From Candidatus Scalindua sp. (GTDB lineage: Bacteria; Planctomycetota; Brocadiia; Brocadiales; Scalinduaceae), in NCBI GenBank assembly GCA_021776915.1, contig JAIQZU010000046.1, positions 1-47,677 of the forward strand: a stretch of 47,677 nucleotides of DNA, given 5' to 3'. Shown piece after piece: positions 23,202 through 39,133 of this stretch. The notes below the pieces were generated by a model. That model was not told where the DNA came from. It ran no database searches and saw only the letters and a list, made by a program, of their open reading frames with translations. Within the stretch, counting starts at the first letter, position 1; every line of letters begins with the position of its first letter. A program made the position numbers and the translations under genes.

Positions 23202-25196
23202 ATGTGCAGTCTAAGATCTTTTTTCTTTCTAATTACCATTACCATTTTGATTGCACAACAAGTCAATCTTGTGCATGGTGAAGATGATGTAAAAAATGAT
23301 TTAAGTAAATCAATTGACGAATTGAAAAAGGTATTAGAAAAAGAACCGTCAAATGTTGAGGGTCATTATTATCTTGGATTGGCCTACTATGATAAAGGAT
23401 TGATGCCTGAAGCCGTAGGCGAGTTTAACAAGATACTGGAACTCGATAAGAATTATATTAATGCATATTTTCATCTGGGGGCTATTTACACCAATCAGGA
23501 AGATATCGATAAAGCAATTGATATATTCAAAAAGGTATTGCAGGTTGATGAAACCAATGCAATGGCGGAATACAACCTGGGCTTTCTTTATAACAAAAAA
23601 GGATTAGTAGACGATGCAATTGCTGCGTATGAAAAGGCGATTGAAATTCAACCTGATCATTATCAATCATTAAACAACCTGGGAATTATTTATTATAAAA
23701 AGGGATTACCGGATAATGCTATCGCAAGTTATAAAAAGGCTGTTGAGGTGAATCCTGACTATGCCGAATCATATTACAACCTTGGCACTGCTTATCTTGA
23801 ACAGGGCCAGTTGGATAATGCCGTTTCTGAACTTGAGAAGGCCGCAACTCTTGCACCCGGATTCCTGGATGCATATTACAACCTGGGAATTGCATACAGG
23901 AAGAAGGGGATGCCGGATGAAGCAATATCAGCATTGAATAAGGCGTCGGAAATAGATCCAAAGGATATTAAAACGTTAAACAATCTGGCGATAGCGTTTT
24001 ATGAAAAAGGAAAATTTGAGGATGCCATTATCACATATGAGAATATAGTTGCCATCACCCCGGAGGAAGCAAATGTACGCTATAACCTGGGTATTGCTTA
24101 TTTTAAGGCTGGAATGTTAAACGAAGCCATATCAGAACTGCAGAAGGTGTGTGAATTAGAGCCAGGCTACGTAAAAGCTCATTATAATCTTGGCGTTATC
24201 TATATGGGAAAAAACATGCTAAATGAATCTATAAAGGAGTTTCAAGAGGCGTTAAAAATAGATCCCGGTTATGCTAAAGCCTACGTTAACCTGGGAGTAG
24301 TTCATTATAGGAAAGGATTGCCGGATGAAGCTATCACCGCTTACAACAGGGCGATAGAGATCAAGCCGGATTATGCAGAGGCATATTATAATTCAAGTTT
24401 TGCATATCTGAAAAAGGGACTGATAGACGATGCCATAAATATGTTAAAAAAGGGCATTGAGCTTAATCCTGATAATAGCCTTCTCCATTTTCTACTGGGA
24501 AACGCTTATAGTGATAAGGGCTTATTGGATGAAGCGGTTACCGCATGGGAGAAAGTTTTAGAGACAAAACCGAAACACTATAAGGCATATAATAATCTTG
24601 GCTTTGCCTATTATTCAAAGGGACTGGTGGACAAGGCCATAACCTCCCTTAAAAAGGCAATAGAAATAAAAGATGATTATGCCGAGGCACACTATAACCT
24701 GGGTTCAATATATATTGAAAAGGACATGCCCGAAAAAGCGGTCGCAGAGCTTACCAGAACAATTGAACTCAAGCCCGATCATGCAAAAACCCATTATAAT
24801 TTAGGACTCATATATCGCCATCTGGGTGATCTGGACAATGCCATTGCGGAATGGAAGACGGCGGTTAAGATAAATCCCACTTACGCAAAAGCCTATAACA
24901 ATCTTGGCGTTGCATATGACTTTAAAAATCAGATCGATGAGGCCATATATCAATACAAACATGCGATTGAGATGGAATCTGATTATGGCGAAGCCCATTA
25001 TAATCTTGGAATTGCCTATGCCAAAAAAGGCGATATGGAAAATGCTATTCAAAGGTTGAGGAAGGCAATAGAGATAAACCCGGAGAATCTGGATGCACAT
25101 TTTGCCCTTGGCATAATCTACAGGGCAAAATGGAAGGTAAAAGAATCTGAAAGAGAATTTTCAATCTACAAACGTTTGAAATCAGGAACAAATTGA
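23202..25196 (+). CDS. Exported protein of 18 tandem TPR units
   Basis: A 664-residue protein: a signal peptide (SLRSFFFLITITILIAQQ) followed by an unbroken array of 34-residue TPR units, 17 full and one terminal, each of the pattern YNLGIAYxxKGxxDEAIxxxxKAIEIxPDY. By position I count no insertion between units, so it should form one long superhelix in the periplasm or another non-cytoplasmic compartment and act as a protein-binding scaffold. No catalytic domain is present. It is preceded within 18 bases by a membrane protein gene. GGAGAAATAAC gives a ribosome site for the ATG at 23202. Confidence 0.85.
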   Translation: MCSLRSFFFLITITILIAQQVNLVHGEDDVKNDLSKSIDELKKVLEKEPSNVEGHYYLGLAYYDKGLMPEAVGEFNKILELDKNYINAYFHLGAIYTNQEDIDKAIDIFKKVLQVDETNAMAEYNLGFLYNKKGLVDDAIAAYEKAIEIQPDHYQSLNNLGIIYYKKGLPDNAIASYKKAVEVNPDYAESYYNLGTAYLEQGQLDNAVSELEKAATLAPGFLDAYYNLGIAYRKKGMPDEAISALNKASEIDPKDIKTLNNLAIAFYEKGKFEDAIITYENIVAITPEEANVRYNLGIAYFKAGMLNEAISELQKVCELEPGYVKAHYNLGVIYMGKNMLNESIKEFQEALKIDPGYAKAYVNLGVVHYRKGLPDEAITAYNRAIEIKPDYAEAYYNSSFAYLKKGLIDDAINMLKKGIELNPDNSLLHFLLGNAYSDKGLLDEAVTAWEKVLETKPKHYKAYNNLGFAYYSKGLVDKAITSLKKAIEIKDDYAEAHYNLGSIYIEKDMPEKAVAELTRTIELKPDHAKTHYNLGLIYRHLGDLDNAIAEWKTAVKINPTYAKAYNNLGVAYDFKNQIDEAIYQYKHAIEMESDYGEAHYNLGIAYAKKGDMENAIQRLRKAIEINPENLDAHFALGIIYRAKWKVKESEREFSIYKRLKSGTN

Positions 25197-25248: not shown

Positions 25249-26595
25249 TCATCCCTCATTAACCTTCCTCTGAAGTGTCCTTAAACCAATTCCGAGTAAT
25301 CTTGCGGCTTTGGACTTATTACCATTTGTTTTTTCCAGAGTGAAATTAATTATTTCGTTTTCAGCTTCTTGAAGGGTAAAGTGTTGAGGAATCTGGTAGA
25401 AATCAGCGTGTTGAGGCTGAGCCAGGAGTAAGAAGGAAGGTAGATATTTTGCTTCTATTACGTCCCTGGGAGCAATAGCCATTGCAGCTTCAACCGCATT
25501 TTCAAGTTCTCTCACATTTCCAGGCCATATATAATTTAATAGCATTTGCATTGCATCCTTATTTATGCCTTTTATCTTATATCCTTTCTCTTCATTAAAT
25601 TTACTAATAAAAGAACTGACAAGAAGGGGAATGTCATCCTTTCTTTCTCTAAGATGAGGAACCTCAATGTGTACAATATTCAACCGGTAATAAAGGTCTT
25701 TTCTGAATTTCTTTTCTTCCATAAGATCCTTAAGGTCTTGATTAGTTGCAGCTAAAACCCTTATATTGACTTTTATAGTTTCATTTCCACCAACCCGCTC
25801 AAACTCTTTCTCCTGGAGTACCCTGAGGAGCTTAATCTGTGTGCTTAAGGATAAATCACCTATTTCGTCAAGGAATATCGTACCCTCATTGGCAAGCTCG
25901 AACCTGCCAATTCTTTTTGTAATTGCACCTGTAAACGAACCCTTCTCATGGCCAAATATTTCTGATTCAAGGACCCCTTCATTAAAAGCACCACAGTTGA
26001 CCGTAATAAAAGGTTTTGATGCACGCGGACTGTTATAATGTATAGCCTTTGCAACCATCTCTTTTCCGCTTCCGGTTTCTCCAGTAATAAGGACACTTGC
26101 ATTCTTAGGAGCTACAGAACTAATTAGATTAATAACATACTGCATTGGCTTACTTCTTCCGACTATGTTCTCAAAGTCAAACATTGTATTTATCTTTTTC
26201 TCAAGTTCAATCTTTTCCAGAAAGAGTGACTGCTTTTCAATCGCTTTTTCTATCACGGTAGTTAAGAGCCTCGGCTTTACAGGAATCTCATAGAAGTCAT
26301 AAGCACCTCCTCTCATAGCATCTATAGCATTTGTTAGTGTCACATTATCTGAAAGGAAGATTAACTCTACGTCTGGTTTTATAGTTTTTATCTTATTTAG
26401 AAAAGTTGGAATTTTGATATTTGGAAGATGATAGTCAGAAAGAATAATATTTACGGGTTCACTTTTTAGTTTTTTATAAGCCTCATTTACTGTAGAAGCC
26501 GTGTGGATATACATTTTCTTTTTTTTCAAATAATTAATTATCTTTTCCCATTCCGGTTTTCCCTCCTCAGAAATCGTAAGAATATTAGTTTGCAT
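25249..26595 (-). CDS. NtrC-type sigma-54 activator with receiver domain
   Basis: A 448-residue response regulator. The receiver domain spans 1-120 with the phospho-acceptor Asp54 in ILSDYHLP and a Lys in IPVKP. The AAA+ domain has the Walker A GETGSGKE, the sigma-54 loop GSFTGA (usually GAFTGA) and FLDEIGDL. A C-terminal Fis-type helix-turn-helix follows (KSKAARLLGIGLRTLQRKV). The acidic pair at the receiver N-terminus is weak (ISEEG in place of the usual VDDE). No histidine kinase gene is nearby. Paired palindromes lie just upstream of its start, and a sigma-54-like promoter beyond them points to the next genes, which it may regulate. Confidence 0.93.
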   Translation of the reverse strand: MQTNILTISEEGKPEWEKIINYLKKKKMYIHTASTVNEAYKKLKSEPVNIILSDYHLPNIKIPTFLNKIKTIKPDVELIFLSDNVTLTNAIDAMRGGAYDFYEIPVKPRLLTTVIEKAIEKQSLFLEKIELEKKINTMFDFENIVGRSKPMQYVINLISSVAPKNASVLITGETGSGKEMVAKAIHYNSPRASKPFITVNCGAFNEGVLESEIFGHEKGSFTGAITKRIGRFELANEGTIFLDEIGDLSLSTQIKLLRVLQEKEFERVGGNETIKVNIRVLAATNQDLKDLMEEKKFRKDLYYRLNIVHIEVPHLRERKDDIPLLVSSFISKFNEEKGYKIKGINKDAMQMLLNYIWPGNVRELENAVEAAMAIAPRDVIEAKYLPSFLLLAQPQHADFYQIPQHFTLQEAENEIINFTLEKTNGNKSKAARLLGIGLRTLQRKVNEG

Positions 26596-26659: not shown

Positions 26660-26711
26660 GTCATTATGACATCCAAATCTTAATAACGTCTATATTAAGC
26701 GTCAATATGAC
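26660..26711. promoter_or_regulatory. Paired palindromes, candidate activator sites (locus 1)
   Basis: GTCATTATGAC (26660-26670, perfect palindrome) and GTCAATATGAC (26701-26711), centres 41 bp apart, each preceded by C and followed by AT. The proximal site is followed by ATAGTCAT. They lie 65-116 bases upstream of the divergent NtrC-type gene and about 107 bases (proximal centre) before the GG of a sigma-54-like element. This is the spacing expected of enhancer sites; the same layout recurs at 35016-35066. Confidence 0.6.
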
Positions 26712-26810
26712 ATAGTCATTTAAACCAAAAATATTAAATTAAAGCAACTATTATTTTTTAATCACTATGATAAGTGGCTACTACAATAGAACTTATTGAT
26801 TTAGGACCAA

Positions 26811-26827
26811 TTGGCACAGGCTTTGAT
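26811..26827 (+). promoter_or_regulatory. Sigma-54-like promoter (locus 1)
   Basis: TTGGCACAGGCTTTGAT matches YTGGCACGRNNNTTGCW at all positions but two: A for G after CAC, and A for C in the -12 GC. GG and the -12 G are exactly 12 bases apart. The -12 deviation lowers confidence. It would drive the small frame at 26852 and the HMA-like gene at 27068. Confidence 0.5.
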
Positions 26828-27067: not shown

Positions 27068-27481
27068 ATGTTTGAAAATAAGTACTTAAGTCTCGGTTAT
27101 GTTTCAGTAGCTTCTATTATATTTGGAATAGTAATAAACGTATCTTTTGCAAAAGCAGAGTCTTCATTAAAAAGCAATATCGATTCCTCACAGTCCTACA
27201 CAATCAAAAAGATGTCTGCTTCCGAGGAGAATGAGCCTGCTCAAGAAAATATTGAGGAAGAAGAATTAGAGGAGTTTGAACTACGTATTAAGGGAATGAC
27301 TGGCGTTAATTGTGAGAACGCAGTGAAAGAAGCGCTTTTGAAGTGCTCTGGTGTCAAGGCTGCCCGGGCAAGCCACAAAGAAGGTAATGCTGTTATAGAA
27401 GCCAATGCGGATATGATTGATGGTGATGAAGTTGAAGATGCTATAAAAAAAGCCGGTTTCTCTCTTGTAGAGGAAGAATAA
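27068..27481 (+). CDS. Exported HMA-like domain protein with single-Cys motif
   Basis: A 137-residue protein: an N-terminal hydrophobic export signal (SVASIIFGIVINVSFAKA, residues 13-30), an acidic linker around 52-70 (EEEELEEFE), and a C-terminal heavy-metal-associated (ferredoxin-like) domain. The metal loop normally GMTCxxC reads GMTGVNC (76-82), so the first Cys is Gly; Cys82 and Cys93 remain. The fold features (AVKEALLKCSGVKAARAS, DEVEDAIKKAGF) fit the HMA family. It may bind metal differently or have lost metal binding. AAAAAGGAGG before the ATG is a strong ribosome site. It lies downstream of the sigma-54-like promoter next to the NtrC-type gene. Confidence 0.75.
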   Translation: MFENKYLSLGYVSVASIIFGIVINVSFAKAESSLKSNIDSSQSYTIKKMSASEENEPAQENIEEEELEEFELRIKGMTGVNCENAVKEALLKCSGVKAARASHKEGNAVIEANADMIDGDEVEDAIKKAGFSLVEEE

Positions 27482-35015: not shown

Positions 35016-35066
35016 GCCATTATGGCGTATACACATCTATATAATTGTATTGACAGTCATATTGAC
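35016..35066. promoter_or_regulatory. Paired palindromes, candidate activator sites (locus 2)
   Basis: GCCATTATGGC (35016-35026, perfect palindrome) and GTCATATTGAC (35056-35066), centres 40 bp apart. The proximal one is the exact reverse complement of the proximal site of locus 1 (GTCAATATGAC), and both are followed by the bases ATAG. The proximal centre is 108 bases before the GG of a sigma-54-like element. The distal site differs from its locus 1 partner by a symmetric T-to-C/A-to-G pair change. Confidence 0.6.
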
Positions 35067-35166
35067 ATAGCGTTTATATGCAAAATATCATTTTCAGTGT
35101 AAACAATTTATCTTGTCAATAACATAAGTGACTATGACACTAAATGATACAAATATTACTATTAAA

Positions 35167-35183
35167 TTGGTATGAAAATTGTG
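35167..35183 (+). promoter_or_regulatory. Sigma-54-like promoter (locus 2)
   Basis: TTGGTATGAAAATTGTG has GG and TTG-T spaced as in a -24/-12 promoter (12 bases from G to G), with a -12 GT instead of GC. By itself it is a weak match; the paired palindromes upstream at the same distance as in locus 1 make it credible. It would transcribe the small interrupted frame at 35253 and the PsiE-like gene at 35476. Confidence 0.45.
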
Positions 35184-35475: not shown

Positions 35476-35940
35476 ATGGAAAAGAAAATAGAGACTATAC
35501 CAATTCATTACAATAAAATACTTGATAAACTTAAGACGTTTGAAAGAATAATCATCATATCTCTCACCATTATGATGGTGTTCGTTGTTTTTATTTCAAC
35601 AGTGAGGCTTGGTTGGTGGCTTGTAACAAAAATAATTGAGCCGCCATTTTTGATGTTTAATATCGAACAACTGTTTGTAATCTTTGGTTTCTTTCTCATG
35701 GTCCTCATAGGAATCGAGCTTCTGGAGTCACTGAAGGTATATATAAAGGAAGACAAGATACAAGTAGAAGTAATTTTTACAATCGCTTTAATAGCTGTGG
35801 CTCGTAAGGTTATAACTTTGGATCTAAAAAAACTTCCGGACTGCACACTTATAGGAATTGCGTCTATAATCTTATCTCTTGCTATAGGATACTTTCTAAT
35901 TAAAAGAGTTCACATCAATAACAATATAACAAATACGTAA
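35476..35940 (+). CDS. PsiE-family membrane protein (copy 1)
   Basis: A 154-residue protein with four hydrophobic helices, of the phosphate-starvation-inducible PsiE family. It contains FERIIIISLTIMMVFVVFIS, FVIFGFFLMVLIGIELLESLK, VEVIFTIALIAVARKVITLD and a C-terminal helix. It acts in the inner membrane; the biochemical function is unknown in the family. The ATG follows CAGATGGAGAATTAA. A second copy lies at 38702 on the other strand, very similar through the FVIFGFFLM and ALIAVARKVITLD blocks. It sits downstream of the sigma-54-like promoter of locus 2. The 5' spacer 34921-35252 contains the paired palindromes. Confidence 0.85.
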   Translation: MEKKIETIPIHYNKILDKLKTFERIIIISLTIMMVFVVFISTVRLGWWLVTKIIEPPFLMFNIEQLFVIFGFFLMVLIGIELLESLKVYIKEDKIQVEVIFTIALIAVARKVITLDLKKLPDCTLIGIASIILSLAIGYFLIKRVHINNNITNT

Positions 35941-36082
35941 ATATGCAGATTGTACTGTTTTAGCGGCCAGCCTTTTTGGCTGCGTATTGTCACATCATAG
36001 AATAATCAAACGCAGGCAGGGTATATGCGGGATTATCCACCTGGGTCTAGTAATGAATCCCGTAAAATAAAGGAGGTTTATT

Positions 36083-36523
36083 ATGGCATTAGTAAAATGG
36101 GATCCATGGCGTGAAATCGAGGATGTGTTCGACCGTTACAACAGGGCGGTTGGTTTGCCTAGAAGCGGAAGCCGGGAAGTGATGACTGCCGGCGACTGGT
36201 CTCCTCGTGTTGACATCGTTGAAAATGATAACGAGTTTGTCATAAAAGCGGAGATTCCCGAAGTCAAAAAGGAGGACGTTAAGGTTTCTGTCGACAATGG
36301 AGTTCTGACCTTAAAAGGAGAGCGAAAGCAGGAGAAGGAGGAAAAGGGCAAAAAGTTCCATAGAGTAGAAAGGTATTTTGGTTCCTTTACCCGCAGCTTC
36401 ACCCTTCCGGAAAACGTAGATGAGTCTAAAGTCAAAGCCAGTTTCAAAGATGGCATGCTGAGTCTTCAGATCCCGAAGACTGAAAAGGCAAAACCAAAAA
36501 CGATAGAGGTTAAGATTGATTAG
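36083..36523 (+). CDS. Small heat-shock protein Hsp20
   Basis: A 146-residue alpha-crystallin-type chaperone. The N-terminal arm MALVKWDPWREIEDVFDRYN is typical. The crystallin domain follows (WSPRVDIVENDNEFVIKAEI; VKVSVDNGVLTLKGERK; FHRVERYFGSFTRSFTLPEN), and the I-x-I-like tail is QIPKTEKAKPKTIEV. It holds unfolded proteins in an ATP-independent way. AAAGGAGG before the ATG is a strong ribosome site. A possible promoter is TTGGCT (about 35978) with TAGAAT 16 bases on; no CIRCE element is seen. A long hairpin follows the gene. Confidence 0.95.
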   Translation: MALVKWDPWREIEDVFDRYNRAVGLPRSGSREVMTAGDWSPRVDIVENDNEFVIKAEIPEVKKEDVKVSVDNGVLTLKGERKQEKEEKGKKFHRVERYFGSFTRSFTLPENVDESKVKASFKDGMLSLQIPKTEKAKPKTIEVKID

Positions 36524-38701: not shown

Positions 38702-39133
38702 TCACTGCTTAGTATTAGAATCTTGGTGGTTTTTTTTTATTAAGAAATATCCCACAGCAAGAGCTACAATGAGAGCCGCAATTCCTATAATTGTAAGTTC
38801 AGGGAGTTTTGTTATATCTAAAGTTATTACCTTCCGTGCAACAGCTATTAAGGCGACTGTGAAAATTACTTCAACGTGTATCTTGTCTTCTGTTAAATAC
38901 GTCTTAATTGATTCCAATAGTTCGAGTCCTATAAGGATCATGAGAAAGAAACCAAAGATTACAAATAATTCTTCAATACTGAGCATTAGAAATGGCGGTC
39001 TATTTAGCTCCTCAACCAATTTCCAGCCAAGTCCGATAGTGGAAATAAAAACAACTAAGACCATCATAATAATGAGAGCGCTGATAATCATCCTTTCGAA
39101 CGTCCTAAGCTTTTCGTTTATATTGAAACTCAT
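38702..39133 (-). CDS. PsiE-family membrane protein (copy 2)
   Basis: A 143-residue PsiE-like protein with the same four helices as the 35476 copy: FERMIISALIIMMVLVVFIS, FVIFGFFLMILIGLELLES, VEVIFTVALIAVARKVITLD and a C-terminal helix ending in KKNHQDSN. The start ATG follows CTCCTTAAATAAT. It is leftward, convergent with the MFS gene (145 bases between stops). No copy of the paired palindromes or sigma-54-like element is seen upstream of it, so the two paralogues may be regulated differently. Confidence 0.85.
   Translation of the reverse strand: MSFNINEKLRTFERMIISALIIMMVLVVFISTIGLGWKLVEELNRPPFLMLSIEELFVIFGFFLMILIGLELLESIKTYLTEDKIHVEVIFTVALIAVARKVITLDITKLPELTIIGIAALIVALAVGYFLIKKNHQDSNTKQ

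Follow-up and report, generated by a model that had tools for sequence, protein, structure and literature searches.

Two control regions in the window, the 47,677-nucleotide stretch of Candidatus Scalindua sp. DNA analyzed here, very probably act as upstream activator sequences (UAS), or enhancers, of sigma-54 promoters, and their sequences point to a common control signal of a chaperone regulon in Brocadiales (the anammox order) and other Planctomycetota. How chaperone genes are switched in planctomycetes, and in anammox bacteria in particular, is an unsettled question, and it becomes directly testable once the enhancer, the promoter, and the targets are defined. If this reading is true, a large part of the phylum would run its core heat-shock response through an ATP-driven, signal-gated sigma-54 switch.

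Architecture of the Two Control Regions

Each control region contains two 11-bp palindromes followed by a sigma-54-type promoter (Table 1), and the two loci lie 8.4 kb apart. The palindrome centres at locus 1 are 41 bp apart, with 107 bp between the proximal centre and the GG of the -24 element. At locus 2 the corresponding distances are 40 bp and 108 bp, as the first-pass annotation had reported, and the distal centre is 148 bp from the GG at both loci. The -24 and -12 doublets are correctly spaced for sigma-54 in both promoters (TGGCAC-N5-TTGC). The -12 element reads GA at locus 1 and GT, not GC, at locus 2; the latter is a weak -12 and counts against the enhancer reading.

Table 1. Positions of the control elements and neighbouring genes in the window.
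Feature	Position	Strand	Remark
Locus 1 distal palindrome GTCATTATGAC (UAS)	26660..26670	.	
Locus 1 proximal palindrome GTCAATATGAC (26701-26711) plus ATAG	26701..26715	+	
Locus 1 sigma-54-type promoter TTGGCACAGGCTTTGAT	26811..26827	+	
Locus 2 distal palindrome GCCATTATGGC (UAS)	35016..35026	.	matches models R1-R3
Locus 2 proximal palindrome GTCATATTGAC (35056-35066) plus ATAG	35056..35070	+	
Locus 2 sigma-54-type promoter TTGGTATGAAAATTGTG	35167..35183	+	GG of -24 at 35169-35170
NtrC-family enhancer-binding protein	25249..26595	-	candidate activator of HMA locus
Small protein, putative signal peptide and HMA domain (PF00403)	27068..27481	+	conserved gene behind locus 1
PsiE-family membrane protein (PF06146)	35476..35940	+	
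Hsp20 small heat-shock protein (PF00011)	36083..36523	+	142-bp gap after psiE, possibly cotranscribed

The earlier description of the palindromes themselves also holds: the distal palindromes of the two loci differ by a compensated T/A to C/G change, the proximal palindromes are reverse complements of one another, and GACATAG continues from the proximal site at both loci. The likeness claimed for the DNA between the palindromes (CGTCTATATTAA versus CATCTATATAATT) is out of register and does not stand. Furthermore, the DNA between the proximal site and the promoter has an in-register identity of 31% between the loci, compared with 33 +/- 4% for shuffled sequence, and consequently the claimed likeness of the intervening DNA is not meaningful and duplication is unlikely. 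The annotation had left the choice between a regulon and a duplicated control region; the regulon is strongly supported and extends further than it had suggested, to chaperone operons across the phylum, and a recent duplication of locus 1 to give locus 2 is very improbable. The order of the elements is the same at both loci and their spacing agrees within one base, and a genuine case of this kind is present in another genome (G010:C17, L303 1311-3470), in which a second HMA-type control region precedes genes for a 215-residue predicted membrane protein and an HMA protein, close to the remnant of a broken activator gene. However, a duplication fits poorly with intervening DNA at shuffled-sequence identity and with a psiE site that is about as similar to the chaperone sites as to the locus 1 sites.

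The paired spacing had been judged unlikely to arise by chance, and this judgment is borne out by a model that excludes psiE, which recovered the psiE site in a genome-wide search (E = 1.1e-11), and by the count of GNCANNNTGACATAG, which occurs in only three copies in the 3.8-Mb genome (reversed control, 0). Short palindromes are common, and single copies of GTCATNNTGAC occur in the genome at about the control frequency. Nevertheless, the probability that these are chance palindromes in A+T-rich intergenic DNA is close to nil, as the spaced pair is found across the phylum almost only before chaperone genes, which refutes chance for the class.

Probable Chaperone Regulon in Brocadiales

The distribution of the element was surveyed with sequence-only models in genomes of which many are drafts. 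Model R1, built from 12 control regions with psiE included, matched sites in relatives upstream of an HMA-like gene with hsp20 (G008:C61), dnaK (G012), groEL (G005, G002), and groES-groEL (G012). Model R2, built from 18 regions with psiE left out, was used to search 39 genomes. In the genome of the window it matched regions outside its training set, namely the psiE site on the window's contig (C41) at the E-value given above and the sites before C72 dnaK-clpB (7.6e-9) and C27 RR-groES-groEL (6.6e-7), as well as a weak site before C38 groEL-hsp20-lon (0.027); these E-values derive from a shortened calibration, and several matches share homologous operons. Two regions of the training set, C67 groEL-groES-groEL-dnaJ-grpE and locus 1 on C41, were also matched. 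Two simpler patterns were rejected, as one that described the pair strictly found locus 1 only and the pattern TGACATAG...TGGYA returned mostly noise.

About 60 Brocadiales promoters were tabulated, and the pair precedes chaperone operons. Conservation of the palindromes and their spacing in related genomes, on which the first-pass annotation had made its reading depend, is seen both beside activator orthologues and across the order. The palindromes are most often 41 bp apart (29 of 38 well-scored pairs), and the GG most often follows the proximal centre at 105 or 106 bp (31 of 62). This is the arrangement of an NtrC-type UAS, in which at least two conserved, helically phased dyads lie about 80-200 bp upstream. 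Promoters at the chaperone loci are mostly near the full -24/-12 consensus. In the RR-groES-groEL operons the pair is about 32 bp apart, corresponding to three helical turns and not four, and the dnaK loci often contain only one good palindrome, which counts against the enhancer reading. Sites at the HMA locus can be told apart from those at chaperone genes as a sub-class of their own, and the psiE site falls between the two.

Because paired inverted repeats can be operators, the palindromes might alternatively belong to a repressor of the chaperone genes and be unrelated to the -24/-12 motif. This is improbable, as the -24 element follows them at a distance of about 105 bp that is nearly fixed in many families, which puts them in the usual place of a sigma-54 enhancer, and as sigma-54 promoters need an activator by an established mechanism.

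Distribution across Planctomycetota

Model R3 drew on 25 regions, with psiE and further Brocadiales families among them, and was used to search 294 Planctomycetota genomes. Outside Brocadiales, 28 of the 30 matches examined are directly upstream of groEL, groES, dnaK, clpB, or hsp20, and these 28 span 13 families; the remaining two have no chaperone gene downstream. Coverage is incomplete, which counts against the reading: matches were found in only 23 of the approximately 270 genomes sampled outside the order, although this was at an E-value threshold of 0.001 with strict filters and an A+T-rich model. As nothing but upstream DNA went into training the models, the concentration of matches at chaperone genes is independent support for a real element.

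Candidate Activators

The enhancer-binding protein encoded beside locus 1 has the domains of the NtrC family, namely a receiver (PF00072), an AAA+ domain (PF00158), and a Fis-type HTH (PF02954). The receiver contains the Asp of LSDYHLP, and the AAA+ domain carries GSFTGA as its GAFTGA-like loop. The receiver is atypical in that its N-terminal acidic pair reads SEE. Orthologues with 65-88% identity are present in nine other genomes, all beside sites of the shared type; a tenth genome (G003) has an activator fragment only. For eight of the nine, the intergenic region immediately upstream contains the proximal palindrome and a -24/-12 promoter whose distance from the centre of that palindrome is 104-107 bp; a distal palindrome, 41 bp from the proximal one, is usually recognizable as well. 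The region immediately upstream of the ninth (G019) does not contain the element, and three sites are located on its contig at distances of up to about 6 kb.

These orthologues adjoining such sites raise the prospect of a small local regulon, in which the window activator alone binds loci 1 and 2, with the chaperone sites forming part of a separate system that is only similar. The 8.4-kb proximity of the loci, the GACATAG that they share, and an HMA-locus sub-class measurably unlike the chaperone sub-class are consistent with this alternative. It is nevertheless rather unlikely, as the psiE site is found by a model that mixes the two classes (E 1.1e-11) and scores between them, and as both classes obey the same spacing rules. 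Returning to the shared chaperone regulon, the neighbouring activator is a plausible binder of the window sites and probably uses the HMA-locus version of the element. It would not be the sole binder, because many genomes have a groEL or dnaK site and no orthologue and because the psiE site is intermediate; since those genomes have no orthologue, another chaperone activator must exist in them.

A similarity search with the HTH for a universal relative of the window activator gave no clear candidate. In related genomes, Hsp20 clusters (L299 3233-3567, L301 3471-3822, L294 4800-5140) contain a divergently transcribed gene for a 513-residue sigma-54 activator and apparent sigma-54 promoters. This protein was rejected as the general activator, as the intergenic repeat differs and model matches are weak or none. 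The repeat in these clusters is GGGAA-N6-TTCCC-like and perhaps marks a second chaperone switch. In G101 (C193), a 577-residue sigma-54 activator (L346 8508-10241, minus strand) is encoded just upstream of a site and groES-groEL, making it, in this one genome, a candidate general chaperone activator.

Proposed Mechanism

The palindromes are located, paired, and phased on the helix as would be expected of an enhancer from which an NtrC-family protein loops to the promoter. First, a dimeric or oligomeric activator of this family would bind the two palindromes (consensus CTGCCA-N3-TGGCAT, half-site TGNCAT), whose 41-bp separation is about four helical turns. Next, we infer that DNA looping would bring the AAA+ ring of the activator to the sigma-54 RNA polymerase at the -24/-12 elements, about 105 bp downstream. 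A conserved TCAATT-N2-CATAAG-like stretch in the enhancer-promoter interval resembles an IHF site, judging from the consensus. Finally, ATP hydrolysis by the activator would open the promoter, in line with the established requirement of sigma-54 polymerase for an AAA+ activator. Heat or misfolded protein may be the signal, and the assignment of particular activators to particular sites is likewise provisional. The predicted chaperone and protein-quality regulon would comprise groEL-groES-groEL-dnaJ-grpE, groES-groEL, dnaK-clpB, clpB, hsp20, and groEL-hsp20-lon. In the window, the element is proposed to drive psiE-hsp20 and the small HMA-domain protein beside a dedicated activator.

A broader proposal, which is tentative and falls somewhat short of an even chance, is that sigma-54 with a dedicated enhancer-binding protein, and not sigma-32 or HrcA, is the ancestral master switch for heat shock in Planctomycetota and reads a single conserved palindrome pair in front of every main chaperone operon. 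Anammox bacteria would then have added a second, specialized activator that recruited hsp20/psiE and the HMA protein.

Comparison with Known Systems

The element resembles known sigma-54/NtrC-family systems (NtrC, ZraR, NifA, and PspF type) in its -24/-12 promoter, its paired palindromes about 100-150 bp upstream, and the NtrC-family activator gene adjacent to one target. In contrast to these systems, the palindrome is CTGCCA-N3-TGGCAT and a near-fixed 41/105-bp geometry is found on chaperone operons. A groESL operon is under the control of sigma-54 and an enhancer-binding protein in Bradyrhizobium japonicum, where groESL3 is NifA-dependent; however, this is one operon tied to nitrogen fixation, whereas the regulon proposed here would be a general chaperone regulon. 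Classical control by HrcA/CIRCE and sigma-32 acts on the same target operons, and a search for CIRCE (TTAGCACTC-N9-GAGTGCTAA) with up to 3 mismatches found none in the chaperone loci examined here. Studholme and Dixon reportedly studied Pirellula activators, and that work may contain related predictions.

Sigma-54 promoters on chaperone genes of Planctomycetia and Bacteroidota have been predicted from motifs in a 2025 study (PMC12316311). The gene classes are shared with the element (GroEL, GroES, IbpA, GrpE, DnaJ, and DnaK), while the approach is promoter scoring, and a search of its text returned no mention of an upstream activator sequence, of an inverted repeat, or of an organism of the Brocadia type. 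Similarly, a term search of the text of a study of sigma-54 regulons in Desulfovibrio (PMC4641369) returned no heat-shock chaperone regulon. In Rhodopirellula baltica, heat shock induces ClpB, GroEL, DnaJ, GrpE, Hsp20, and DnaK through a regulator that was not established; expression of the usual heat-shock sigma factor genes (rpoH, rpoE, and rpoN) was unchanged, from which its authors concluded that some other cascade is at work (PMC2754498). A description of the enhancer element was not found in the open-licence literature searched, and this palindrome pair in front of heat-shock chaperone genes is apparently undescribed so far.

Genes beside the Two Loci

The control region was looked for at psiE orthologues elsewhere and was absent, which counts against the enhancer reading, and psiE was rejected as a conserved target. 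Consequently, the hsp20 gene directly downstream is the likelier conserved target. In G008:C61 a relative of this hsp20 follows an HMA-like gene downstream of the same UAS/sigma-54 promoter; given this and the psiE orthologues without the element, locus 2 is probably the hsp20 control region, with psiE carried along. A second PsiE-family gene in the window (38702-39133, minus strand) is 68% identical to the first and does not have the control region.

Several further features of the window were noted. An Rfam search returned a tRNA as its sole match. In the hsp20 leader (36027-36063), a 7-bp hairpin closely precedes the ribosome-binding site, with compensatory changes in two pairs among four homologues, suggesting possible control at the RNA level. 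Adjoining the activator gene is a gene (23202-25196) for a 664-residue protein made up almost wholly of tetratricopeptide repeats. The CxxC metal motif of the HMA protein is kept in L010-L012 and reads GVNC in the window protein and SVNS in L009; one lineage seems to be losing its metal-binding cysteines.
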